Assembly: GCF_037975245.1 (NCBI RefSeq)
Contig: NC_092577.1
Coordinates: 139,501 to 203,500 of the forward strand
Source: Apostichopus japonicus
Lineage: Eukaryota; Echinodermata; Holothuroidea; Aspidochirotida; Stichopodidae
DNA length: 64,000 nucleotides
Reading direction: 5' to 3'
Position 1 is the stretch's first letter, and every line of letters begins with the position of its first letter. The notes beneath the pieces were generated by a model, which saw only the letters and a program-made list of their open reading frames with translations, was not told where the DNA came from and made no database searches. The position numbers and the translations under genes were made by a program. Positions 1 through 58,700 of this stretch are shown piece by piece.

Positions 1-1205
1 AGCTAAAAACAGACAGCTACGACAGGTGATGGAAAGACTCCGACAGCTTGTATGGGACATAAACACCATGATGGCAATGAAGCATACCCACCCATCTTGA
101 TGGCAATGAAGCATGCCCACCCATCCTGATGGCAATGAAGCATACCCACCCGTCTTTAGAAACATTAAGATGACACGAGGGTCATGGTATGAATGATATT
201 TGTCTGATGGAAAGATTCCCACAGCTTGTATGGGACATAAACACCATGATGGCAATGAAGCATACCCACCCATCTTGAGAAACATTAAGATGACATCTCT
301 TGTAACACCAGGGTCATGGTATGAATGATATTTGTCTGATGGAAAGACTCCGACAGCTTATATGGGACATAAACACCATGATGGCAATGAAGCATACCCA
401 CCCATCTTGATGGCAATGAAGCATGCCCACCCATCCTGATGGCAATGAAGCATACCCACCCGTCTTGAGAAACATTAAGATGACACCAGGGTCATGGTAT
501 GAATGATATTTGTCTGATGGAAAGATTCCCACAGCTTGTATGGGACATTAACACCATTATGGCAATGAAGCATACCCACCCATCTTGAGAAACATTAAGA
601 TGACATCTCTTGTAACACCAGGGTCATGGTATGAATGATATTTGTCTGATGGAAAGATTCCCACAGCTTATATGGGACATAAACACCATGATGGCAATGA
701 AGCATACCCACCCATCATAAGAAACATTAAGATGATATCTCTTGTAACACCAGGGTCATGGTAAGAATGATATTTACTGTCTGATGGAAAGATTCCCACA
801 GCTTGTATGTGACATAAACACCATGATGGCAATGAAGCATACCCACCCATCATAAGAAACATTTGGATGACATCTCTTGTAACACCAGGGTCATGGTACA
901 AATGATATTTGTCTGATGGAAAGATTCCCACAGCTTATATGGGATATAAACACCATGATGGCAATGAAGCATACCCACCCATCATGAGAAACATTAAGAT
1001 GGCATCTCTTGTAACACCAGGGTCATGGTACAAATGATATTTGTCTGATGGAAAGATTCCCACAGCTTATATGGGACATGAACACCATGATGGCAATGAA
1101 GCATACCCACCCATCATAAGAAACATTAAGGTGACAGCTCTTGTAACACCAGGTCCATGGTATGAATGATATTTACTGTCTGATGGAAAGATTCCAACAA
1201 TTTGT
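1..1205. repeat. Minisatellite, ~132-bp unit with an internal 31-bp sub-repeat
   Basis: Units beginning TGATGGAAAGA recur at about 27, 206, 337, 516, 647, 782, 915, 1047 and 1181. Spacing is mostly 130-135 bp but about 180 bp where the 31-bp block GATGGCAATGAAGCATACCC... is repeated three times inside a unit. The array runs off the left edge. Short open frames on the minus strand here are by-products of the repeat. Confidence 0.9.
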
Positions 1206-2256
1206 ATGTGAACAATTGGGTAGCTCATTAATAAATTTCTTCTTTTTGAAGGAGCGTCATTCCTTTGAATTTTAATTAAATAAACTCAGCAGTTTGGCTA
1301 GGCACATGTTGAATTGGAACAAAGCCTCTTGTTTTTTTTATTTATAGTAATGAAAGTTGAAAGGACATTGTAAAAGATTTGTTTATGTTGTTCAGCTGTT
1401 AATCTGTGATGGTCAGTTGATGGTATGTTCTAATATTAGTAATGTTAAATAAGTGTATTTGACAAAGTGCACAATTCCACAATAAAATGATCCAAGGTGA
1501 CAATTTAAAGAAGCAAACATATAAATATTTAAAGCAAAAAACAACCAAAAAGTAAATACTTTAAAGTCTAAAGCAGAAGGACAAGAATAGTAAAAATAAA
1601 TGACAAGTATATTGATATATACACTATATTATTATTAAATAGATGAGTTTTAAGTCTACACTTTAAAATCTCAACTAATGGGTTTGAACAAACAAAGATT
1701 GGTGAATTGTTGACATGCTATGGATCCAGAATAACAAAGAAACAGTCTTAGTATTGACATTTACTTGAACAAGAGTTCTTTACAGCTCTTGTTTGAACAA
1801 AGAAATTTAGAATCAGACCTTAACTTATGCTTAGAATATACGACTCAATAAGGTCACACAAATGACCTTATGGCAAGTCAGTTTGATTGCAGTATCCATA
1901 GTATGATGCGCACAAATGAGAGGTTTGAGTGATTCGCAGATAAACCATCCAATAACAAATTACATCCATCTAAACCAGAACAATTACAAACATGCACTAA
2001 CTTAAATAAGAATGACTAACTTACACTTATAAGATAAGGAAGCTGAACAGATATTAGAAATGTGATTTTCCTTTGAAAACTGCAAGTGAAATTAAAACAC
2101 CTAGATTCCAAGCCCTACACAAAAAAACATTTACAAATTATTCAACAATCTTGATCAGACTGATAGTGAAGAGAAAAAAACAGAAATTCCGAGACCTATA
2201 GATCGCAAATTATGTCTCTGACTGGTGGAATAAAAGCAAGAAATGACATGTTCATA
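1206..2256. other. AT-rich non-coding stretch, nothing recognised
   Basis: No open frame, repeat or element end that I can support. It separates two tandem arrays. Confidence 0.5.
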
Positions 2257-2690
2257 TAGTCCTTTGTATCGTGAAGACAAGCTGCATGTGTGCCCCTGAC
2301 ATTAATGTGATTAACATTAGCAAGGAATTACATGTCATACAGTCTTCATATCATGAAGACACGGTACTGTACATGTGTGCACCTGACATTAATGTGATTA
2401 ACATTAGCAAGGAATAACATGTCATACAGTCTTCATATCGTGTAGACAAGCTGCATGTGTGCACCTGACATTAATGTGATTAACATTAGCAAGGAATTAC
2501 ATGTCATACAGTCTTCATATCGTGTAGACAAGCTGCATGTGTGCACCTGACATTAATGTGATAAACATTAGCAAGGAATTACATGTCATACAGTCTTCAT
2601 ATCATGAAGACAAGCTGCATGTGTGCACCTGACATTAATGTGATTAACATTAGCAAGGAATTACATGTCATACAGTCTTCATGAATATCA
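2257..2690. repeat. Tandem repeat, ~82-86-bp unit, five copies
   Basis: Five copies of a unit containing ACATTAATGTGATTAACATT and ATTACATGTCATACAGTCTT. Each has the inverted repeat AATGTGATTAACATT. A short open frame starting in the last copy is not a credible gene. Confidence 0.85.
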
Positions 2691-2828
2691 TTCATGACAC
2701 ATTAGAGAGCAGTGACTGCCATGAGCAGAGTGATATGCCTATTGTTATTGGTCATACAAGTAAAACGAATATCGTTCATGACATGTTAGAGAGCAGTGAC
2801 TGTGCCATGGGCAGAGAAATATGCCTAT

Positions 2829-3172
2829 CAGTGGCGGAGCGTCCATACAGTCAAGGGGGTGGGGGGGCATATGCCCCCCCTGACAGACTCAAATGGACTG
2901 CTGGCGCCCTTTTCAGCTTTTTACCACTTTTTACTTATTCGCGATTATTGACCTTTTTATTGCGCTCTCATCTACCTATTGACGTTTGTCACATTATCTG
3001 CAAATTAGCAAGGCCCGGAAAGGGTCATTTCCGGCGATCTAGGGAGTATCATTACTCAAAAAATGTCTGTATGCCCTGCGCCAACCTGTGGTGGCGCTCC
3101 GCTTAGATAGTGTAGAAAGCGCCCCTACAGACCATTCTCGCCCCCTGACCAATAACCTTAGCTCCGCCACTG
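2829..3172 (-). mobile_element. Non-autonomous hAT-like MITE (copy A)
   Basis: The ends are CAGTGGCGGAGC and its inverted partner GCTCCGCCACTG. The 8-bp flanks are ATGCCTAT on the left and ATGCCTTG on the right, a 6/8 match that suggests a decayed 8-bp target duplication, as made by hAT elements. Near 3075-3120 it carries, inverted, the GC-rich core (ACTATCTAAGCGGAGCGCCA... GGTTGGCGC) shared with the elements at 44550, 45946, 46259 and 47271. There is no transposase. Confidence 0.75.
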
Positions 3173-3529
3173 ATGCCTTGTACTTGTCACACAAATTAAA
3201 AGTCAACAAAGTATTCTTTTGAAATGTAACAATATGCCCATGATTTTACCAGAAAACTTAATTATGTTGTTGAAATGAATGCCATCAGTTGCGTATAATG
3301 TCATATTAAATACCTCGATCTTCACACCAAAGATCTTACAAACAACATCTACTAACTCAAAAGTCTTCTTTCACGCCATGACTCACAAGCGCACTTGAAT
3401 AAGTTTGGATATTATTATGACAGCAAACAAATTCTAGAGTCGGGTAAAGTCTGCAATATTTTCAGTGAATGATATTAGTGTAGATAAGTTTGGACAATAT
3501 CTAGGACACCCCTGACATTGATATGCTGA
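3173..3529. other. Unassigned non-coding stretch
   Basis: Lies between the MITE and the 52-bp array. If the GRIP-like gene has exons or 3' UTR downstream of its array they would be here, but I see no convincing coding segment. Confidence 0.4.
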
Positions 3530-6500
3530 TTTCTTCACTTAGCTTTCTTATCTTTTACAGCATGTTTAATCAATTCTCTGTGTGTTTCACTTAGCTTTCT
3601 TATCTTTTACAGCATGTTTCATCAATTCTCTATGTGTTTCACTTAGCTTTCTTATCTTTTACAGCATGGTTAATCAATTCTCTATGTGTTTCACTTAGCT
3701 TTCTTATCTTTTACATCATGTTTAATCAATTCTCTATGTGTTTCACTTAGATTTCTTATCGTTTACAGCATGTTTAATCAATTCTCTATGTGTTTCACTT
3801 AGATTTCTTATCGTTTACAGCATGTTTAATCAATTCTCTATGTGTTTCACTTAGCTTTCTTATCTTTTACAGCATGTTTAATCAATTCTCTATGTGTTTC
3901 ACTTAGCTTTCTTATCTTTTACAGCATGTTTAATCAATTCTCTATGTGTTTCACTTAGCTTTCTTATCTTTTACAGCATGTTTCATCAATTCTCTGTGTG
4001 TTTCACTTAGCTTTCTTATCTTTTACAGCATGTTTAATCAATTCTCTATGTGTTTCACTTAGCTTTCTTATCTTTTACAGCATGTTTAATCAATTCTCTA
4101 TGTGTTTCACTTAGCTTTCTTATCTTTTACAGCATGTTAAAATCAATTCTCTGTGTGTTTCACTTAGCTTTCTTATCTTTTACAGCATGTTTAATCAATT
4201 CTCTGTGTGTTTCACTTAGCTTTCTTATCTTTTACAGCATGTTTAATCAATTCTCTGTGTGTTTCACTTAGCTTTCTTATCTTTTACAGCATGTTTAATC
4301 AATTCTCTATGTGTTTCACTTAGCTTTCTTATCTTTTACAGCATGTTAAAATCAATTCTTTGTGTGTTTCACTTAGCTTTCTTATCTTTTACAGCATGTT
4401 TAATCAATTCTCTGTGTGTTTCACTTAGCTTTCTTATCTTTTACAGCATGTTTCATCAATTCTCTGTGTGTTTCACTTAGCTTTCTTATCTTTTACAGCA
4501 TGTTTCATCAATTCTCTGTGTGTTTCACTTATCTTTCTTATCTTTTACAGCATGTTTAATCAATTCTCTGTGTGTTTCACTTAGCTTTCTTATCTTTTAC
4601 AGCATGTTTCATCAATTCTCTGTGTGTTTCACTTAGCTTTCTTATCTTTTACAGCATGTTTCATCAATTCTCTGTGTGTTTCACTTAGCTTTCTTATCTT
4701 TTACAGCATGTTAAAATCAATTCTCTGTGTGTTTCACTTAGCTTTCTTATCTTTTACAGCATGTTTAATCAATTCTCTGTGTGTTTCACTTAGCTTTCTT
4801 ATCTTTTACAGCATGTTTAATCAATTCTCTGTGTGTTTCACTTAGCTTTCTTATCTTTTACAGCATGTTTAATCAATTCTCTGTGTGTTTCACTTAGCTT
4901 TCTTATCTTTTACAGCATGTTTAATCAATTCTCTGTGTGTTTCACTTAGCTTTCTTATCTTTTACAGCATGTTTAATCAATTCTCTGTGTGTTTCACTTA
5001 GCTTTCTTATCTTTTACAGCATGTTTAATCAATTCTCTGTGTGTTTCACTTAGCTTTCTTATCTTTTACAGCATGTTTAATCAATTCTCTGTGTGTTTCA
5101 CTTATCTTTCTTACCTTTTACAGCATGTTTAATCAATTCTCTGTGTGTTTCACTTAGCTTTCTTATCTTTTACAGCATGTTTCATCAATTCTCTGTGTGT
5201 TTCACTTAGCTTTCTTATCTTTTACAGCATGTTTAATCAATTCTCTGTGTGTTTCACTTAGCTTTCTTATCTTTTACAGCATGTTTAATCAATTCTCTGT
5301 GTGTTTCACTTTGCTTTCTTATCTTTTACAGCATGGTTAATCAATTCTCTGTGTGTTTCACTTTGCTTTCTTATCTTTTACAGCATGGTTAATCAATTCT
5401 CTGTGTGTTTCACTTAGCTTTCTTATCTTTTACAGCATGTTTAATCAATTCTCTGTGTGTTTCACTTAGCTTTCTTATCTTTTACAGCATGTTTAATCAA
5501 TTCTCTGTGTGTTTCACTTAGCTTTCTTATCTTTTACAGCATGTTTAATCAATTCTCTGTGTGTTTCACTTAGCTTTCTTATCTTTTACAGCATGTTTCA
5601 TCAGTTCTCTATGTGTTTCACTTAGCTTTCTTATCTTTTACAGCATGTTTCATCAATTCTCTGTGTGTTTCACTTAGCTTTCTTATCTTTTACAGCATGT
5701 TTAATCAATTCTCTGTGTGTTTCACTTAGCTTTCTTATCTTTTACAGCATGGTTAATCAATTCTCTGTGTGTTTCACTTAGCTTTCTTATCTTTTACAGC
5801 ATGTTTCATCAATTCTCTGTGTGTTTCACTTAGCTTTCTTATCTTTTACAGCATGGTTCATCAATTCTCTGTGTGTTTCACTTAGCTTTCTTATCTTTTA
5901 CAGCATGTTTAATCAATTCTCTGTGTTTCACTTAGCTTTCTTATCTTTTACAGCATGTTTAATCAATTCTCTGTGTGTTTCACTTAGCTTTCTTATCTTT
6001 TACAGCATGTTTAATCAATTCTCTGTGTGTTTCACTTAGCTTTCTTATCTTTTACAGCATGTTTAATCAATTCTCTGTGTGTTTCACTTTGCTTTCTTAT
6101 CTTTTACAGCATGTTTAATCAATTCTCTGTGTGTTTCACTTAGCTTTCTTATCTTTTACAGCATGTTTCATCAATTCTCTGTGTGTTTCACTTAGCTTTC
6201 TTATCTTTTACAGCATGTTTCATCAATTCTCTGTGTGTTTCACTTAGCTTTCTTATCTTTTACAGCATGTTTCATCAATTCTCTGTGTGTTTCACTTAGC
6301 TTTCTTATCTTTTACAGCATGTTTCATCAATTCTCTGTGTGTTTCACTTAGCTTTCTTATCTTTTACAGCATGTTTAATCAATTCTCTGTGTGTTTCACT
6401 TAGCTTTCTTATCTTTTACAGCATGTTTAATCAATTCTCTGTGTGTTTCACTTAGCTTTCTTATCTTTTACAGCATGGTTAATCAATTCTCTGTGTGTTT

Positions 6501-7375
6501 CACTTAGCTTTCTTATCTTTTACAGCATGTTTCATCAATTCTCTGTGTGTTTCACTTAGCTTTCTTATCTTTTACAGCATGGTTAATCAATTCTCTATGT
6601 GTTTCACTTAGCTTTCTTATCTTTTACAGCATGTTTAATCAATTCTCTGTGTTTCACTTAGCTTTCTTATCTTTTACAGCATGTTTAATCAATTCTCTAT
6701 GTGTTTCACTTAGCTTTCTTATCTTTTACAGCATGGTTAATCAATTCTCTGTGTGTTTCACTTAGCTTTCTTATCTTTTACAGCATGTTTAATCAATTCT
6801 CTGTGTTTCACTTAGCTTTCTTATCTTTTACAGCATGTTTCATCAATTCTCTGTGTGTTTCACTTAGCTTTCTTATCTTTTACAGCATGGTTAATCAATT
6901 CTCTATGTGTTTCACTTAGCTTTCTTATCTTTTACAGCATGTTTAATCAATTCTCTGTGTTTCACTTAGCTTTCTTATCTTTTACAGCATGTTTCATCAA
7001 TTCTCTATGTGTTTCACTTAGCTTTCTTATCTTTTACAGCATGTTTCATCAATTCTCTATGTGTTTCACTTAGCTTTCTTATCTTTTACAGCATGTTTCA
7101 TCAATTCTCTGTGTGTTTCACTTAGCTTTCTTATCTTTTACAGCATGTTTAATCAATTCTCTATGTGTTTCACTTAGCTTTCTTATCTTTTACAGCATGT
7201 TTAATCAATTCTCTATGTGTTTCACTTAGCTTTCTTATCTTTTACATCATGTTTAATCAATTCTCTATGTGTTTCACTTAGCTTTCTTATCTTTTACATC
7301 ATGTTTAATCAATTCTCTATGTGTTTCACTTAGCTTTCTTATCTTTTACAGCATGGTTAATCAATTCTCTATGTG
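3530..7375 (-). repeat. 52-bp minisatellite, ~74 copies, made from a coding exon end
   Basis: The plus-strand unit contains CTTAGCTTTCTTATCTTTTA CAG CATG...TCAATTCTCT. Period is 52 bp, with some 50- and 54-bp variants (GTGTTTCAC, GTTAAAATC). The gene-proximal unit (about 7326-7378) is read in frame as the end of the GRIP-like protein on the minus strand. The other units lie downstream of that reading frame. Each unit also has a strong acceptor-like TTTCTTATCTTTTACAG on the plus strand and a weak donor-like GCT|GTAAAAG on the minus strand. Small plus-strand open frames in the array are artefacts. Confidence 0.95.
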
Positions 7376-7841
7376 TTTCAGAGAATTCTAATAATGTCAT
7401 GATCATTTCCAGATTGCCTTCTTTTTCCCGACCTGTCAGATAATAGAACACAGCACTCTTTAACATACCAATCTTAGCATCATCAATGCTGGCCACATTT
7501 GGACCCTTTTTGTACGTCTCTTCCCTCTTAGAATCTTTCATTTTCTGGAGCTTTCTCTCTGTTCTTGATAATTTCTCAACTAGTTTCTGGGTGAGGGGAT
7601 CTCCCTTCTCCATGGCAAACCTTCTGACTAGCTCTTCCTCCTGTTCTATTAAGACAGCTTCTTGTCCTTTCTGATAGAGTTCTAGATATCTTCTTTGGTG
7701 TATTTTTTCTCTCTGGTTCTGGTCATCCGTCACCTGAGCCAGTTTTGATTCCATCTCAGAGATCCTTGCTATCTTATCCTGCAGTGTCGATTCTACATCT
7801 TCTGTGTGTTCAGTTAGCTTTTCCAGTTTAGTTGTTACGTC
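7326..7841 (-). CDS. GRIP-like gene, last visible exon
   Basis: Acceptor CCTTTCCTCAG|GACGTAACA. It encodes coiled coil, then the GRIP-like segment, and ends in KDKKAK and TGA. The final 17 codons are the first unit of the 52-bp array. The TGA comes from the shifted frame (52 = 3 x 17 + 1) at the start of the second unit. Alternatively splicing leaves within the unit at GCT|GTAAAAG. Confidence 0.75.
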   Translation of the reverse strand, partial: DVTTKLEKLTEHTEDVESTLQDKIARISEMESKLAQVTDDQNQREKIHQRRYLELYQKGQEAVLIEQEEELVRRFAMEKGDPLTQKLVEKLSRTERKLQKMKDSKREETYKKGPNVASIDDAKIGMLKSAVFYYLTGREKEGNLEMIMTLLEFSETHRELINHAVKDKKAK

Positions 7842-8741
7842 CTGAGGAAAGGGCAGAGGTGTTTGATATTCCCCTTACTTTGGGTCTTGCTGACTTATGC
7901 AGCTAATCATTTTACTTAAATGAAGGGCAGAGAAATATCTAACAAAAACTGACAAATTTGTGGAGTAAGATGATAGTTGATAGTGTCAATATGATCCTTG
8001 TGTAGACTGAAAGTTATTGTAAAGAATTATACACTATTATCAGTTTACTGTTCACAATACTCTTAACCCTTGTGTAGACTGTAAGTTATTGTAAAGAATT
8101 ATAGGCCTACACTATTATCAGTTTACTGTTCACAATACTGTTAACCCTTGTGTAGACTGAAAGTTATTGTAAAGAATTATACACTAACAGTTTATTGTTC
8201 ACAATACTGTTAACCCTTTTGTAGACTGAAGCTTATTATAAATAATTATACACTGTTATTAGTTCACTGTTCACACTCAGGCTACTGTTAACCCTTTTGT
8301 AGACTGAAGCTTATTATAAATAATTATACACTGTTATTAGTTTACTGTTCACACTCAGGCTACTGTTAACCCTTGTGTAAACTGAAGCTCATTGAATAGA
8401 ATTATACACTGTTATTAGTTTACTGTAATCATAACTGTGATGATACTCACATCATGTTGCTTGTCCATGGCTGTTAACTTATCATCAAGATCTTTAAGTT
8501 TGTCATTTAGTTGTTGATTCTGTTGGTTCAGCTCTCGATGATCAGATTCTTTATCAGTTAATTCTCCCTCCAAGGATTTGATCTTCTTTCTCAGTTCTTG
8601 AATCTTCCTGTCTTTCTGCTGCATTGGAGTAATTGCTTTGTAGTCCTTACCATCTTCACCTTTTGTCTTTGTTCCATTGTCCTTTGATTTATTTTTTGAT
8701 TTGTTTGTGGCTTGGATCTGCCCTTCCTCCATTGATGTTGA
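7326..8741 (-). CDS. Coiled-coil protein with GRIP-like C-terminus (3' part of gene)
   Basis: Two exons join in phase 0: 8741-8451 (97 codons) and 7841-7326 (171 codons plus stop). Sequence shows a lysine-rich segment, then long heptad-rich coiled coil (QELRKKIKSLEGELTDKE, LTEHTEDVESTLQDKIARIS). The last 50 residues contain IGMLKSAVFYYLTGREKEG followed by MIMTLLEFS. That spacing resembles GRIP domains of golgins, which bind ARL1 at the trans-Golgi, but the tyrosine usual at the start of the GRIP helix is methionine here, so ARL1 binding is uncertain. The 5' exon has an acceptor (ATTATCTTGCAG), so upstream sequence exists; the first ATG (STSMEEG) could be the start after a 5'-UTR intron, or the gene may continue upstream. 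The exact golgin is not recognised. Confidence 0.7.
7960..8430. repeat. Tandem repeat, ~70-80-bp unit, six copies
   Basis: Intronic array starting about 20 nt after the donor of the 8451-8741 exon. The shared unit contains GTAGACTGAAAGTTATTGTA, ATTATACACT and CAGTTTACTGTTCACA. Unit length varies through small indels. Confidence 0.85.
8451..8741 (-). CDS. GRIP-like gene, penultimate exon
   Basis: Acceptor ATTATCTTGCAG|TCAACA, donor CATGAT|GTGAGTATCA. It is 291 nt, phase 0 at both ends, and encodes a charged N-terminal part and the first coiled-coil stretch ending TAMDKQHD. Confidence 0.75.
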
Positions 8742-20400: not shown

Positions 20401-23400
20401 ATTATGCCTAGATAAGTTACACTAGTTAAAACTCACCATGATAGGGCGTACAACAACCAGACTATGTGCAGGGATTATGCCTAGATCAGTTACACTAGTT
20501 ATAACTCACCATGATAGGACATACAACAACCAGATTACAGGGGTTATGCCTAGATAAGTTACACTAGTTAAAACTCACCATGATAGGGCAAACAACAACC
20601 AGATTACAGGGATTATGCCTAGATAAGTTATACTAGTTAAAACTCACCACTTTAAGTCTGCCCTCTCTCCTTGTAACTGAGAAGTGTTATGGAATGCTCT
20701 GAGTTTAGCCACTAGATCAACAGAGTCTTTAGCTGCATTTACAGCCAGGGTCTTTGGGATGACCAGCAAAGAGTTGGCAAACTCTGCAATGGCCAGCTGC
20801 TCCCTGGAGCTCTGTGAGGAGAGGAAAACATATCACATGACACATGAACTTTAAGGAGAGTAAGAACACCAACTATACTTGACATCTGTAATTTAAAGTC
20901 ACTTGTTTCATCAACCATAGTCATATACGGTTTCATGCATGAGTAGCTACTACTACCAATAAGCACAGCCAGAATGAGCTGCAACTAGTAATTAAAAATA
21001 TAGGGGAAAAGAACCTGCTACTACCAAGATGTCTAAATAGTGACATGGTACTACCTGTGATGTATAAGAGTGACCTGCTACTACCAGTATTGTCTTAAGA
21101 GTGACCTGCTACTACCAGCATTGTTTTAAGAGTGACCTGCTACTACCAGCATTGTCTTAAGGGTGACCTGCTACTACTACTACCAGTGATGTCTTAAGGG
21201 TGACCTGCTACTACTAGTGATGTCTAAAGAGTGACCTGCTACTACCAGCATTGTCTTAAGAGTGACCTGCTACTACTACTACCAGTGATGTCTTAAGGGT
21301 GACCTGCTACTACTAGTGATGTCTAAAGAGTGACCTGCTACTACCAGTGATGTCTTGAGAGTGACCTGCTACTACTACTACCAGTGATGTCTTAAGGGTG
21401 ACCTGCTACTACTAGTGATGTCTTAAGGGTGATCAGCTACTACCATTATTGCCTTAAGAGTGACCTGCTACTACCAGCATTGTCTTGAGAGTGACCTGCT
21501 ACTACCAGCATTGTCTTAAGAGTGACCTGCTACTACCAGTATTGTCTTAAGAGTGACCTGCTACTACCAGCATTGTTTTAAGAGTGACCTGCTACTACTA
21601 GTGATGTCTAAAGAGTGACCTGCTACTACCAGTGATGTCTTGAGAGTGACCTGCTACTACTACTACCAGTGATGTCTTAAGGGTGACCTGCTACTACTAG
21701 TGATGTCTTAAGGGTGATCAGCTACTACCATTATTGCCTTAAGAGTGACCTGCTACTACCAGCATTGTCTTGAGAGTGACCTGCTACTACCAGCATTGTC
21801 TTGAGAGTGACCTGCTACTACCAGCATTGTCTTCAGGGTGACCTGCTACTACTAGTGATGTCTTAAGGGTGATCTGCTACTACCATTATTGTCTTAAGAG
21901 TGACCTGCTACTACCAGCATTGTCTTGAGAGTGACCTGCTACTACCAGCATTGTCTTGAGAGTGACCTGCTACTACCAGCATTGTCTTGAGAGTGACCTG
22001 CTACTACCAGCATTGTCTTTAGAGTGACCTGCTACTACCAGTGATGTCTTAAGGGTGACCTGCTACTACCATTATTGCCTTAAGAGTGACCTGCTACTAC
22101 TAGTGATGTCTTTAGAGTGACCTGCTACTACCAGTGATGTCTTAAGAGTGACCTGCTACTACCATTGATGTATTAAGAATGAGCTGCTACTACCAGTGAT
22201 GTATAAAGAGTGAGCTGCTACTTACCAGTGATGTAGCAAGGTTCTCAAGGTAGATAGAAAGGGCAGCTTCAACAGCTCCCCCTCCTGTTACTACTGTCTT
22301 ACTCTCAAGAACTCGCTTCACAACACACAGTGAATCATGAATAGACCTTTCCATCTCGTCACACTGTGTATCATTTGCTCCCCTCAGGATGATAGAGGCA
22401 GCCTTCTTTACTTTTGGTCTAGAAAAAAAGTTAAATCCAAAAGGTGTTAACAGAGGATTAAATGTATTCAAATATTTTAGTTATATAGCTAGCCTATCAA
22501 TTATTTCTTGCAAAATGTATGTTAACCCCTATTGTTAATGTATGTTAACCTTTATTTTAATGTATGTTAACCCCTATTGTTAATGTATGTTAACCTTTAT
22601 TTTAATGTATGTTAACCCCTATTGTTAATGTATGTTAACCTTTATTTTAATGTTGTTAACCTTTATTTTAATGTATGTTAATCCCTATTGTTAATGTATG
22701 TTAACCCCTATTGTTAATGTATGTTAACCTTTATTTTAATGTATGTTAATCCCTATTGTTAATGTATGTTAATCCCTATTGTTAATGTATGTTAACCCCT
22801 ATTGTTAATGTATGTTAACCTTTATTTTAATGTATGTTAACCCCTATTGTTAATGTATGTTAACCTTTATTTTAATGTATGTTAACCCCTATTGTTAATG
22901 TATGTTAACCCCTATTGTTAATGTATGTTAACCTTTATTTTAATGTATGTTAACCCCTATTGTTAATGTATGTTAACCTTTATTTTAATGTATGTTAATC
23001 CCTATTGTTAATGTATGTTAACCCCTATTGTTAATGTATGTTAACCTTTCTTTTAATGTATGTTAATCCCTATTGTTAATGTATGTTAACCCCTATTGTT
23101 AATGTATGTTAACCTTTATTTTAATGTATGTTAATCCCTATTGTTAATGTATGTTAACCCCTATTGTTAATGTATGTTTACCTTTATTTTAATGTATGTT
23201 AATCCCTATTGTTAATGTATGTTAACCCCTATTGTTAATGTATGTTTACCTTTATTTTAATGTATGTTAATCCCTATTGTTAATGTATGTTAACCCCTAT
23301 TGTTAATGTATGTTAACCTTTATTTTAATGTATGTTAATCCCTATTGTTAATGTATGTTAACCCCTATTGTTAATGTATGTTTACCTTTATTTTAATGTA

Positions 23401-45781: not shown

Positions 45782-45945
45782 TTTGTCCCCAAAATCCCCA
45801 CGACGAAAGAATTGGCCGAATTGATGCAACTAATCTTGACCAGCAATAATCTGGTATTTGGCAACAAACATTACCCCCAAATTCATGGCACCGCAATGGG
45901 TACCAAAATGGCACCGTCTTTTGCCAACATGATAACATCTTTATG

Positions 45946-46893
45946 CAGGCGCGGCGGAACGGAAAAATTATTGGGGGGGCTAATGTGTCGATACTATCTA
46001 AGCGGAGCGCCACCATCGGTTGGCGCGGAGCGTACAAGAATTTTTTTTTTTTTTCAAACCCCCAGATGGCCGGAAACGGCACTTCCCGAGTGTTTTATGC
46101 TGCGAATACCTAGCCCTAAAATATGGGTCTCAAGCCTGCAATTTCTCAGATTCCGTAAAAGTCTGTGAAAACATTGTAATTTGTATATTCGATGGTGTTT
46201 AAGAGAGTAGCTATAACTCGTAGTGTACCCGCAAAGACGTTTTTGAGTGTAGTAAGGGCAGTGGCGGAGCTAGGGGGTTTTGGTCAGGGGGGGGGTGCAA
46301 GAATGGTCTGTAGGGGCGCTTTCCACACTATCTAAGCGGAGCGCCACCAAAGGTTGGCGCGGAGCGTACAGAAAATTTTCGAGTAAAGATACTCCCTAGA
46401 TTGCAGGAAATGACCCTTTCCGGGCCTTGCTTATTTGCAGATAAACGGAGAATAAATAGGTGTCGTCGCCATTTTGTTGGAAAATTACACCAACAGAATA
46501 TGACAAATGTCAATAGGTATATGAGAGCGCAATAAAATAGTCAATAATCGCGAATAAGTAAACAAGTAGTGAAAAGCTGAAAAGGGCGCCAGCAGTCCAT
46601 TTGAGTCCTTCGGGGGGGGGGGGGGCATCCGCCCCCTGACTGTATTATATATGGACGCTCCGCCACTAAGTAAGGGTATGTTGGAGAACTGGCTGAAATG
46701 AGGCAAGTCATTGGCCTAAGACGAAGTTGTGTTACGCTTACCGGTACTCACACTCACTGCTTCCACTTTTCACGGGGCGTGAGGACTCGGTTGGGGTGAC
46801 AATGTGGTCAATAGCCAGGGGACGGGCCGAGGGTCCCCAGCAATTACTAAAATTATTACACCCCCCCAAGCCCCCCCGGTTCCGCCGCCACTG
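45946..46893 (+). mobile_element. hAT-like element (copy C) inside the Penelope relic
   Basis: Perfect 8-bp target duplications TCTTTATG at 45938-45945 and 46894-46901. Ends are CAGGCGCGGCGGAACGG and inverted CAGTGGCGGCGGAACCGG. The shared core (ACTATCTAAGCGGAGCGCCA, then GGTTGGCGCGGAGCGTAC) lies at about 45995-46040. It contains copy D. Confidence 0.9.
46259..46668 (+). mobile_element. hAT-like MITE (copy D) nested in copy C
   Basis: Perfect 8-bp target duplications AGTAAGGG at 46251-46258 and 46669-46676. Ends are CAGTGGCGGAGC and inverted TAGTGGCGGAGC. The shared core is at about 46324-46372. It is the close relative, in opposite orientation, of copy A at 2829-3172. Confidence 0.92.
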
Positions 46894-52703: not shown

Positions 52704-55700
52704 GTAAGCTCAACCCTCTGGTCACCCTAAAGGTTGCTAAACTTTACTATCCTTTCATATACTGTTGTTATTCTTGCTACCTCATTAATTTGTTTTCTAG
52801 TAATAGATGTCTAATATGTATGACTGATTGAACTATGGGTAATGGTAACTGTTACACTGTTATATACAGTATTAACCCTTGTCTTGAGTAAAATTGGTGG
52901 CACTAGCACCTTTGTAAATGTATATTTAAACATAAAATGCTGATATCGCCATTGCAACAATTTTGCACATGAAAAGGTTTAAATAACCTTTGACCTTCCG
53001 CGAGTCAGACACACTGACAACTACGATCTACAGCTTTACTGTGCTCTACTCCAGGCCCTAAACAATGTAGCATTCGTCCTATACGTGTAATAATGTGTAC
53101 AATTGTGTGCAAATGCTTGGCATACTTGCAGTATACTAGAGCTATACAGTATATGCTTTGCTGGAAGAAGAATGGTTTTCTCAGTCCAAACCAAATCTAG
53201 GCTACCACTTCAACAATATGGCAGCTGCACCATCAGTAATTGAGTTCTCAAATGATGGACTTGAAGTTACAATTGACCCTGTAGTATGTAGTTGTCGGTC
53301 AAACTGTTCCACAAAAAGTGGTAGAGGGGCATGTCCATGCAGAATAGATCAAAGGAATTGCAGACGTGGAACGAGTCGTCACCTGAGTAGAAATCTTTCT
53401 GAATCAGTGAGTATTTGAACTAAATATGTTACCCTGCAGGCTGCACATTTTTGCAGGAAACTCAACAATGCAGTAGCCACGTAGTACGTGTAGATCTAAT
53501 CACCATAGCAGGTACTTGGAGTGAGTAAATAGGGACAGCAATGAACTGAGAGAACCTTATGAATATCGTGATAAAGTTATTCAGGTAAATCAAAAGTCAC
53601 AGTACCCAGCAGTATATCTAGTCACCTTAGCAGGTACTTGGAGTGAGTAAATAGGGGACAGCAATGAACTGAGAGAACCTTATGAATATCGTGATGAAGT
53701 TATTCAGGTAAATCAAAAGTCACAGTACCCAGCAGTATATCTAGTCACCTTAGCAGGTACTTGGAGTGAGTAAATAGGGGACAGCAATGAACTGAGAGAA
53801 CCTTATGAATATCGTGATGAAGTTATTCAGGTAAATCAAAAGTCACAGTACCCAGCAGTATATCTAGTCACCTTAGCAGGTACTTGGAGTGAGTAAATAG
53901 GGGACAGCAATGAACTGAGAGAACCTATGAATATCGTGATGAAGTTATTCAGGTAAATCAAAAGTCACAGTACCCAGCAGTATATCTAGTCACCTTAGCA
54001 GGTACTTGGAGTGAGTAAATAGGGGACAGCAATGAACTGAGAGAACCTTATGAATATCGTGATGAAGTTATTCAGGTAAATCAAAAGTCACAGTACCCAG
54101 CAGTATATCTAGTCACCTTAGCAGGTACTTGGAGTGAGTAAATAGGGGACAGCAATGAACTGAGAGAACCTTATGAATATCGTGATGAAGTTATTCAGGT
54201 AAATCAAAAGTCACAGTACCCAGCAGTATATCTAGTCACCTTAGCAGGTACTTGGAGTGAGTAAATAGGGGACAGCAATGAACTGAGAGAACCTTATGAA
54301 TATCGTGATGAAGTTATTCAGGTAAATCAAAAGTCACAGTACCCAGCAGTATATCTAGTCACCATAGCAGGTACTTGGAGTGAGTAAATAGGGGACAGCA
54401 ATGAACTGAGAGAACCTTATGAATATCGTGATGAAGTTATTCAGGTAAATCAAAAGTCACAGTACCCAGCAGTATATCTAGTCACCATAGCAGGTACTTG
54501 GAGTGAGTAAATAGGGGACAGCAATGAGCTGAGAGAACCTTATGAATATTGTGATGAAGTTATTCAGGTTAATCAAAAGTCACAGTACCCAGCAGTATAT
54601 CTAGTCACCATAGCAGGTACTTGGAGTGAGTAAATAGGAGACAGCAATGAACTGAGAGAACCTTATGAATATCGTGATAAAGTTATTCAGGTAAATCAAA
54701 AGTCACAGTACCCAGCAGTATATCTAGTCACCATAGCAGGTACTTGGAGTGAGTAAATAGGTGACAGCAATGAACTGAGAGAACCTTATGAAAATCATGA
54801 TGAAGTTATTCAGGTAAATCAAAAGTCACAGTACCCAGCAGTGTATCTTATCACCATAGCAGGTACTTGGAGTGAGTAAATAGGGGACAGCAATGAACTG
54901 AGAGAACCTTATGAATATTGTGATGAAGTTATTCAGGTAAATCAAAAGTCACAGTACCCAGCAGTGTATCTAATCACCATAGCAGGTACTTGGAGTGAGT
55001 AAATAGGGGACAGCAATGAACTGAGAGAACCTTATGAATATCGTGATGAAGTTATTCTGGTTATTATCAAAAGTCACAGTACCCAGCAGTATATCTAGTC
55101 ACCATAGCAGGTACTTGGAGTGAGTAAATAGGGGACAGCAATGAACTGAGAGAACCTTATGAATATTGTGATGAAGTGATTAGGGTTAGGGTGCTAACCC
55201 TAACCCTAGTTCTTGCGCTAGTGTTTCTTTCAATGTATATGAATTCTTTTTCTTTGCAAAACAGGGCGATAAACCCCTCATAGTAAAAGCATCCATTGCA
55301 GAAATGGACATACATGATTTCCAGCGTCTTGCCAAAAAGAGCGGAGGAAGAATTCGATGTCCTAATCCAAATTGTATTAGGTCATTTACGACCCGACAAG
55401 GTCTGCTATATCATATCAATAGATGCGGTAAAGAACTTGAGTTGAACTATTCATGTGAACATTGTAAGAAGAGGTATGGATCCTGGCCTGGACTGTCACA
55501 TCACCTGAAACACCATCACAAACAGAAATCTACAGCTGCTGCTACTGAAGAGAGTGATATTCTCATCCCAGGCCAGAGACGACGGGCTGCAGCAAGGTAG
55601 GAATAATATCTACTCATAGTTTTATGCTACACTTAGGGTTAGGGGTAAGTCACATGTCAAACACCATCACAAACAGAATACTACTGCTGCTACTGAAGAG

Positions 55701-58700
55701 AGTGATATACCCATCCCAGGCCAGAGACGACGGGCTGCAGCAAGGTAGGAATAATATCTACTCATAGTTTTATGCTACACTTAGGGTTAGGGGTAAGTCA
55801 CATGTCAAACACCATCACAAACAGAATAATACTGCTGCTACTGAAGAGAGTGATATACCCATCCCAGGCCAGAGACGACGGGCTGCAGCAAGGTAGGAAT
55901 AATATCTACTCATAGTTTTATGCTACACTTACTGTAGGGTTAAGGGTATGTCACATTACCTCAACACACAATCAGAAAGAGAATGTATGTATATTATAGC
56001 TGCTACACAGGAGAAAAACATTCCCATCCCTTTCCAGAGACGATGGGCTGCACCAAGGTAAGAATGTATCTATTCATAGTTTGGTGCTACGTTGAGGGTT
56101 AGGGGTAAGTCACATGTCAAACACCATCCCAAACAGAATACTACTGCTGCTCCTAAAACATTAGTTGCTGCTAGTAAGTTTAAGTGCAACTACAGTAGAG
56201 ACAACAAAGCCTTCATAAGGGAGGAGTAATGAGATATTTATCTTTGTCATTGTCAGGGCAATTGAGAAGCTGCATGAAATTGCTGATGAGTTTAAAGTCC
56301 AGGGAGAATCTGCAGTGACAGACGAGAGTGAATTCATGGATGAAATGGCATCAGCTAAGAGTGTATTGGTTTGTATCATATTGATTGAGTATAGAATGTT
56401 GAATTATGTCAAATTGATATTTAGAGCACAAAAGGTTGTTGGCTTGTTGCCATGGTGATTGAAGTTGGTGAAGACGGAGGTCATATGAGGTGGACATGTG
56501 GATCCAACCTTGGCCTGAGTAAGGCTTGAAAAAGTGTGGAAAGAATCACTATGCATATTGACTTGGTTTCTGGCTTCTATAAGCACCAGAATGACAACAA
56601 TAATATGTAAGGAATGATTTTGGCTAATATTGTGAAATTCATGTTGAAGTTGATTTAATGACATCTAGCTTAGCAATGTATTAGCACATGGAGTACCAGC
56701 ACTTACCTTACATATTAATGGTTGAAAGGTTTGCACTGAAAGAAGACAAAGACATCCATTAGTACACATGGAGTACCAGCACTTACCTTACATATTTATG
56801 GTTGAAAGGTTTGCACTGAAAGAAGACAAAGAGATCCATTAGTACACATGGAGTACCAGCACTTACCTTACATATTTATGGTTGAAAGGTTTGCACTGAA
56901 AGAAGACAAAGAGATCCATTAGTAAACATGGAGTACCAGCACTTACCTTACATATTTCTGGTTGAAAGGTTTGCACTGAAAGAAGACAAAGAGATCCATT
57001 AGTAAACATGGAGTACCAGCACTTACCTTACATATTTATGGTTGAAAGGTTTGCACTGAAAGAAGACAAAGAGATCCATTAGTACACATGGAGTACCAGC
57101 ACTTACCTTACATATTTATGGTTGAAAGGTTTGCACTGAAAGAAGACAAAGAGATCCATTAGTAAACAGGAGTACCAGCACTTACCTTACATATTTATGG
57201 TTGAAAGGTTTGCACTGAAAGAAGACAAAGAGATCCATTAGTACACATGGAGTACCAGCACTTACCTTACATATTTATGGTTGAAAGGTTTGCACTGAAA
57301 GAAGACAAAGAGATCCATTAGTAAACATGGAGTACCAGCACTTACCTTACATATTTATGGTTGAAAGGTTTGCACTGAGACAAGACAAAGAGATCCATTA
57401 GTACACATGGAGTACCAGCACTTACCTTACATATTTATGGTTGAAAGGTTTGCACTGAAAGAAGACAAAGAGATCCATTAGTACACATGGAGTACCAGCA
57501 CTTACCTTACATATTTATGGTTGAAAGGTTTGCACTGAGACAAGACAAAGAGATCCATTAGTACACATGGAGTACCAGCACTTACCTTACATATTTATGG
57601 TTGAAAGGTTTGCACTGAAAGAAGACAAAGAGATCCATTAGTAAACATTTCTTTACTCTTTTGATTCTTTCTGCTGTTTGATCTCAAACAGAAACTATTC
57701 CAAGCTCCAAGCAGCTATAAACCTAGCCCAGAGGATGTTCTATCATGGTCATCTGAGCTGGAAGAATCTGGATATGTCTCCTGTCAATTCTGTAAAAAGA
57801 TTCTTTATGGACTCAAGTTCATCAAGCTTCATACCATCAGCAGTTGTAAAGAGGCAAGCATGACTGAAGCAAGGGCTTAATCTAAAACTGCAAACATTGC
57901 AGCACAATTTCCTTAAGATGTTTGGTTTAATAATATATGAATATTTTAAAAAGGTGTGGTCAAATCTGTGGATGTTTCTTTATTCCTTGCCAAAGGCAAA
58001 ATAAATCCCTGCCATGGTGATGGCATGTGTCTGTGTGTGTGATGCCATGGTGATGGCATGTGTCTGTGTGTGATGCCTTGGTGATGACATGTGTCTGTGT
58101 GTGATGCCATGGTGATGGCATGTGTCTGTGTGTGATGCCATGGTGATGGCATGTGTCTGTGTGTGATGCCTTGGTGATGGCATGTGTCTGTGTGTGATGC
58201 CATGGTGATGGCATGTGTCTGTGTGTGATGCCTTGGTGATGGCATGTGTCTGTGTGTGATGCCATGGTGATGGCATGTGTCTGTGTGTGATGCCATGGTG
58301 ATGGCATGTGTCTGTGTGTGATGCCATGGTGATGGCATGTGTCTGTGTGTGATGACATGGTGATGGCATGTGTCTGTGTGTGATGCCATGGTGATGGCAT
58401 GTGTCTGTGTGTGATGCCATGGCTTATAAACATAATAACTAGAAAACTGTATGATGGATGAACATATTTGGCATGTAGATGAACCATATTGAGTACAAAA
58501 CACCCTATTCAATTGATGAAGGTCAAAGTTTACACCAACTGTTATTAAAGTAACCATGATGAACTTTAAACATGGTGTAAACCACCTTACTGAGTACAAG
58601 ATTTCCAGTACTAATTCACACAGTATGGTATATGGATCCACTTTATAAAAGTGGGTAAGGAATTACTACACCTTTTTGCATTCTGGTTATCAATATCAGC

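Follow-up and report, generated by a model that had tools for sequence, protein, structure and literature searches.

A minisatellite of 74 copies on the reverse strand of the window (the whole 64,000-base stretch of DNA that was analysed) repeats the coding end of the terminal exon in a GRIP-like coiled-coil gene. It is probably an exon-edge ('mirage'-like) minisatellite that was seeded on the 3' edge of this terminal coding exon, the stop codon of the gene being ancestral.

The array and its host gene

The array lies at 3534-7380 (minus strand), where TRF reported a period of 52, 74.1 copies and 97% matches (score 7128), which places it among the minisatellites, i.e. tandem head-to-tail units of about 10-100 bp in many copies. 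A unit-by-unit parse of the minus strand divided it into 74 units, each starting at GAA, with the 52-bp unit GAAACACACAGAGAATTGATTAAACATGCTGTAAAAGATAAGAAAGCTAAGT on the gene strand: 67 of them measure 52 bp, four measure 50 bp (units 9, 12, 15, and 29) and three measure 53 bp (units 52, 59, and 63). Unit 1 (7328-7379, minus strand) is the coding copy, and corresponds exactly to the final 17 codons of the gene, encoding ETHRELINHAVKDKKAK, plus the T of the TGA stop. The GA of that stop (7327-7326) are the first bases of unit 2, and the stop in use (7326-7328, minus strand), as placed by the open reading frame and the unit parse, extends across the seam between units 1 and 2.

The initial annotation had described the unit as the last 17 codons of the GRIP-like gene plus one base, in exact agreement with our parse of unit 1. 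It had also pointed out that, as 52 = 3 x 17 + 1, the next unit is read out of frame and gives AAG TGA; the gene strand carries 74 copies of this hexamer, one at the 3' seam of every unit (74/74 seams, the far seam included). That the array arises at the end of a coding exon was likewise borne out, as it starts at 7380, inside the exon at 7841-7326.

Two splice-like motifs were observed within the array. CTTTCTTATCTTTTACAG, a good-looking splice acceptor on the plus strand of 3534-7380, occurs 68 times there and nowhere else in the window. On the gene strand, the mutated unit 44 reads AAG/GTAAGA (5109-5117; here and below a slash marks an exon edge or candidate edge), a strong donor-like motif with a score of 10.4, whose GT starts at 5114.

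The last exon of the gene (7326-7841, minus strand) comprises 171 codons plus the stop, and is preceded by the acceptor CCTCAG before 7841. The preceding exon (8451-8741, minus strand), also placed by open reading frame and splice context, encodes a coiled coil, contains an ATG (MEEGQIQ...) and is followed by the donor GAT/GTGAGT. Between the two exons, TRF identified an intron minisatellite with a 78-bp unit (7996-8426), 24 bp from the donor. The open frame at 7326-7874 (minus strand) ends with ETHRELINHAVKDKKAK-stop, or in a longer tail ...LEFSETHRELINHAVKDKKAK-stop. Its terminal segment matches Pfam GRIP (PF01465) with E=0.0014 and 18.9 bits, below the curated cut-off of 24.4, and the match spans positions 7-43 of 44 in the profile and residues 138-171 of 182 in the protein. 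Residues 166-182 come from unit 1; they comprise the final six residues of this match and the tail that follows.

In a PDB search, MLKSAVFYYLTGREKEGNLEMIMTLLEFSETHREL of the protein aligned weakly with golgin-245 (1R4A, E=0.43; 1UPT, E=0.51), and unrelated designed helical proteins scored better (5CWO, E=0.0041; 8FBI, E=0.086); with the longer frame as query and E up to 1, the three chains retrieved were all from proteins other than golgins. The weak alignment places a Met opposite Tyr 6 of 1R4A, which presumably corresponds to Y2177 of golgin-245. One study describes this conserved GRIP Tyr of golgin-245 as essential for Golgi targeting and Arl1 interaction, and mutation of the conserved GRIP Tyr in GCC185 as having a minimal effect (PMC4791371). 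Like the GRIP-domain golgins (golgin-245, golgin-97, GCC88, and GCC185), the protein has a C-terminal GRIP-like segment behind a coiled coil, the latter predicted by reading of the sequence; in contrast to a bona fide GRIP domain, its match falls below the Pfam cut-off, and in the weak alignment Met takes the place of Tyr 6 of 1R4A. On these grounds, the protein is named GRIP-like only.

An AlphaFold2 model of the last 59 residues, built without an alignment, gave two helices with a mean pLDDT of 63.0 and a pTM of 0.33, too poor for a fold search. Searches for relatives of the last exon returned 52 pattern stretches in prokaryote genome contigs and 10 in viral contigs, with none confirmed in either collection, and a 28-base stretch of the unit had no exact match in the viral contigs; animal genes are not expected in these collections, and the negative outcome therefore carries little weight. 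Rfam at gathering thresholds gave no matches across the window.

Age of the stop codon and seeding of the array

Unit 74 ends with ...GCTAAGT, and the DNA past the far end of the array begins with GAAGAAATC (longer reading GAAGAAATCAGCATATC). The unit parse and a comparison of the flanks show a TGAA at this far edge (3534-3537, minus strand), composed of the last T of unit 74 and the GAA of the far flank, which contains the putative ancestral stop TGA. The single-copy ancestor was rebuilt as near flank, one unit, and far flank, assuming head-to-tail duplication; because tandem growth of this kind is assumed, the reconstruction is valid wherever the breakpoint sits in the microhomology. Whether unit 1 or unit 74 was placed between the two flanks, the rebuilt sequence reads ...HAVKDKKAK-TGA, with the stop codon in its present position. 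Since AAG TGA is present at that codon even with a single unit, the stop is most likely older than the array. This contradicts the proposal of the initial annotation that the expansion gave rise to the stop and to the KDKKAK end. Rather, the expansion most likely moved the two parts of the old stop 3.8 kb away from each other, and rebuilt an identical stop where units 1 and 2 meet. The GAA of the far flank could also represent the start (three bases) of a truncated 75th unit, in which case the collapsed sequence would have been altered by a later deletion, and such a deletion at the far edge could mimic an ancestral stop.

A 4-bp direct repeat is present at the borders of the seed, within CTC-TGAA-ACAC on the near side and AAG-TGAA-GAAA on the far side. 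The presence of TGAA at both ends suggests a microhomology-seeded duplication, with the seam regenerating the stop. Positions allowing a 52-bp duplication with at least 4 bases of microhomology make up 2.4% of the 1062 considered, the observed one included, and they form five runs, the observed TGAA being one of the five. The simplest seed would be slippage, or repair by microhomology, from one TGAA site to the other, with four bases and one case to go by. Moreover, an 8-bp inverted repeat (AATTCTCT / AGAGAATT, 9-base loop, 7387-7363) is found at the coding-side edge of the array, and no other exact 8-bp stem (loop of 3-12) is present in the 1114 bases of the collapsed region; it might have helped the slippage, again in this one case.

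These elements can be assembled into a history of the array. Judging from its far end, and with head-to-tail duplication assumed, the ancestral gene would have ended in ...HAVKDKKAK-TGA-AGAAATC, as it does today. The 52-bp stretch between two TGAA tetramers, the second containing the stop, would then have been duplicated by microhomology-type slippage or repair, and because TGAA was shared, the seam would have remade AAG-TGA and left the protein unaltered. Copies added past the stop would have drifted without coding constraint and grown to 74, partly in multi-unit blocks, with newer variants accumulating mostly in the interior, where they are now seen. Copy 1 alone would be translated by the reading frame, and copies 2-74, downstream of the stop, would represent 3' UTR or flank.

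The variation among units bears on several of these steps. Units 2-74 vary as untranslated DNA would: unit 1 has the normal length (52 bp), and the remainder include the frame-breaking lengths of 50 and 53 bp as well as amino-acid-changing variants absent from unit 1 (T21G, C29A, C47A, and others). Eleven kinds of base change were counted by eye, leaving out A22T, which was found only in 53-bp units; three of them (C9T, T16C, and T48A) are silent in the gene frame. Units 10, 16, and 72 are identical to unit 1, and units 15-17 repeat the three types of units 9-11 in unchanged order, indicating a block duplication. C9T, the form of unit 1, is carried by 21 units lying near both ends of the array, at a mean distance of 7.4 from the nearer end against 18.0 expected (a value as low in 0 of 20000 shuffles, the units not being independent). 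Because this form gathers at both ends, we infer that the edges of the array have mostly retained older types and that the interior has been renewed; unit 74, the outermost at the far end, is of the interior type (C9) and not of the edge type.

Exon edges elsewhere in the window and alternative readings

Arrays with a TRF score of at least 150 and a period of at least 10 cover 29,479 of the 64,000 bases of the window, and all 13 introns examined (10 of CCT1, 1 of the GRIP-like gene, and 2 of a zinc-finger gene) contain one. The CCT1 (TCP-1 alpha) chaperonin gene (17275-40284, minus strand) was located by tblastn with a human sequence and by splice context, with eleven exons placed. For the zinc-finger gene, we derived the exons ourselves from frames and splice sites; its Pfam zinc-finger matches fall below the curated cut-offs (26.0 of 27 bits and 20.5 of 25.2 bits). 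A further frame (45782-46168, HGTAMGTKMAPSFANM) resembles what we take to be a remnant of a Penelope-type reverse transcriptase; a Pfam search with an E limit of 1 returned nothing for it.

Of the 2986 exon bases, 151 lie within arrays. These overlaps concern 4 of the 16 exons and are always at the 3' edge, two of them being just 4 and 2 bases. By edit-distance matching, the array at 21013-22229 was found to carry copies of the 9 bases that close CCT1 exon 10, together with the donor (ACATCACTG/GTAGTAGCAGC), as in a mirage: with up to 4 edits allowed, the junction is matched 12 times (the real edge counts as one) among some 38 units, and 200 shuffled patterns gave none. Similarly, a 148-bp array at 55508-56151 repeats about 90 bases of the zinc-finger-like exon Ea and its donor (GCAGCAAG/GTAGG), with 4 matches within 6 edits including the real one, counted without a shuffled control. 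A stricter test of exon edges (ungapped, 24 bases, up to 4 mismatches, within 6 kb) was also applied to the 16 exons, and revealed recurrence of the 3' edge only in the last exon of the GRIP-like gene (72 copies) and in Ea (2 copies), and of the acceptor edge in none. The earlier claim that arrays in this region amplify exon edges is thus true of two other exons, CCT1 exon 10 and Ea, the latter by the stricter test as well. CCT1 exon 11 was also considered as a mirage and rejected: an array starts at its donor, yet the edge recurs just once beyond the real one within 4 edits.

The arrays lie nearer the donor in 9 of 13 introns (median 62 vs 193 bp), a preference that is not significant (Wilcoxon p=0.16, sign test p=0.27). 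A broader reading, which we put forward tentatively and consider rather doubtful, is that the minisatellites of this genome are seeded preferentially on exon 3' edges, donors and stop codons alike, because a duplication at such a place keeps the authentic copy on the outside and does no harm to the protein. The 74-copy array would then be one product of a genome-wide process building introns and 3' UTRs from exon ends.

As an alternative, the initial annotation had proposed that the exon once ended at GCT/GTAAAAG, the array being an amplified exon-intron junction; a further coding exon would then lie beyond. The repetition of exon-donor junctions at CCT1 exon 10 and at Ea would be in keeping with such an origin. 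We scored the candidate with a donor matrix built from the 13 donors inferred in the window, each scored when left out in turn: 12 of the 13 lie between 5.8 and 11.7, against -0.4 for GCT/GTAAAA (and 0.2 for the other GT of the unit, TAA/GTGAAA). Weak donors may nevertheless exist, as the thirteenth, inferred in the zinc-finger gene, scores -1.2. However, the C-terminal end of the GRIP match is already reached ahead of the candidate junction, and no downstream minus-strand exon was recognised by eye among the open frames of at least 30 aa in 1-3540. A lost splice junction therefore appears unlikely.

We find it very unlikely that the exon formerly read further and that an out-of-frame expansion made the present stop and C-terminus. 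Such a scenario would account for a unit length that is not a multiple of 3, for a seam that spells AAG TGA, and for a stop that physically belongs in part to unit 1 and in part to unit 2, but under plain tandem duplication the one-copy sequence carries the same TGA. Furthermore, by residue 171 of the 182 the weak GRIP match has reached position 43 of the 44 in the profile, so that the end of the domain is not missing anything. It is highly improbable that the array serves as a functional 3' UTR, with message length or poly(A) choice governed by the number of copies: there are 42 ATTAAA in 3537-7330 on the gene strand (and no AATAAA), with neither hexamer in unit 1, but ATTAAA follows simply from the repetition of the unit's GATTAAAC, variation among the units is free, and arrays are so abundant in the window that a special function is unnecessary. 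Seeding on the exon edge with an ancestral stop is accordingly the reading that we retain, and the array is probably without a dedicated function. The first AATAAA 3' of the array on the gene strand starts at 2961 (2956-2961, minus strand), and is a possible poly(A) signal by pattern match alone.

Relation to mirages and ordinary minisatellites

Two published studies describe 'mirage' minisatellites in the Adh3, TnC, and globin genes of amphioxus, and similar duplications in PGBD5, with cephalochordates as the hosts (PMC3087553, PMC3902484). As presented there, they span intron/exon boundaries, the 5' boundary as well as the 3' boundary being open to change and splicing seemingly undisturbed; their units measure 10-72 bp in Adh3 and about 150-160 bp in the globins, and the two haplotypes of BflGb6 carry 6 and 3 units (PMC3087553, PMC3902484). 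The units of a mirage are reported to be homogenised, with the boundary of the cluster left out (PMC3087553). The array in the GRIP-like gene similarly has tandem copies that include an exon edge and a unit length in the same range, and its interior is homogenised with the edges mostly spared. In contrast to the mirages described there, the repeated edge is the coding end at a stop codon and not a splice boundary, and 74 copies are present as opposed to the 6 and 3 of BflGb6. The array works like a mirage, yet fails the definition of one, because the edge that it repeats is formed by a stop codon instead of a splice site.

Ordinary minisatellites (VNTRs) of 3' UTRs and introns are made of head-to-tail units of tens of bases, and display block duplication and interior homogenisation. 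The 74-unit array shares these three features, but differs in that its outermost unit is coding sequence including the first base of the stop codon. Among the papers listed by full-text searches on minisatellites at exon edges, stop codons, last exons, and UTRs, we found no array with a stop-codon edge. The array looks like a further case of the exon-edge repeats known in some animal genomes, here on a stop-codon edge.

The array shows that a coding edge can seed a large array with the protein unchanged, because the seam re-creates the stop. The far end of the array makes it possible to trace the history of the stop codon, which offers a test usable without orthologues. If seeding on exon 3' edges is indeed general in this genome, it would bear on the growth of introns and 3' UTRs.
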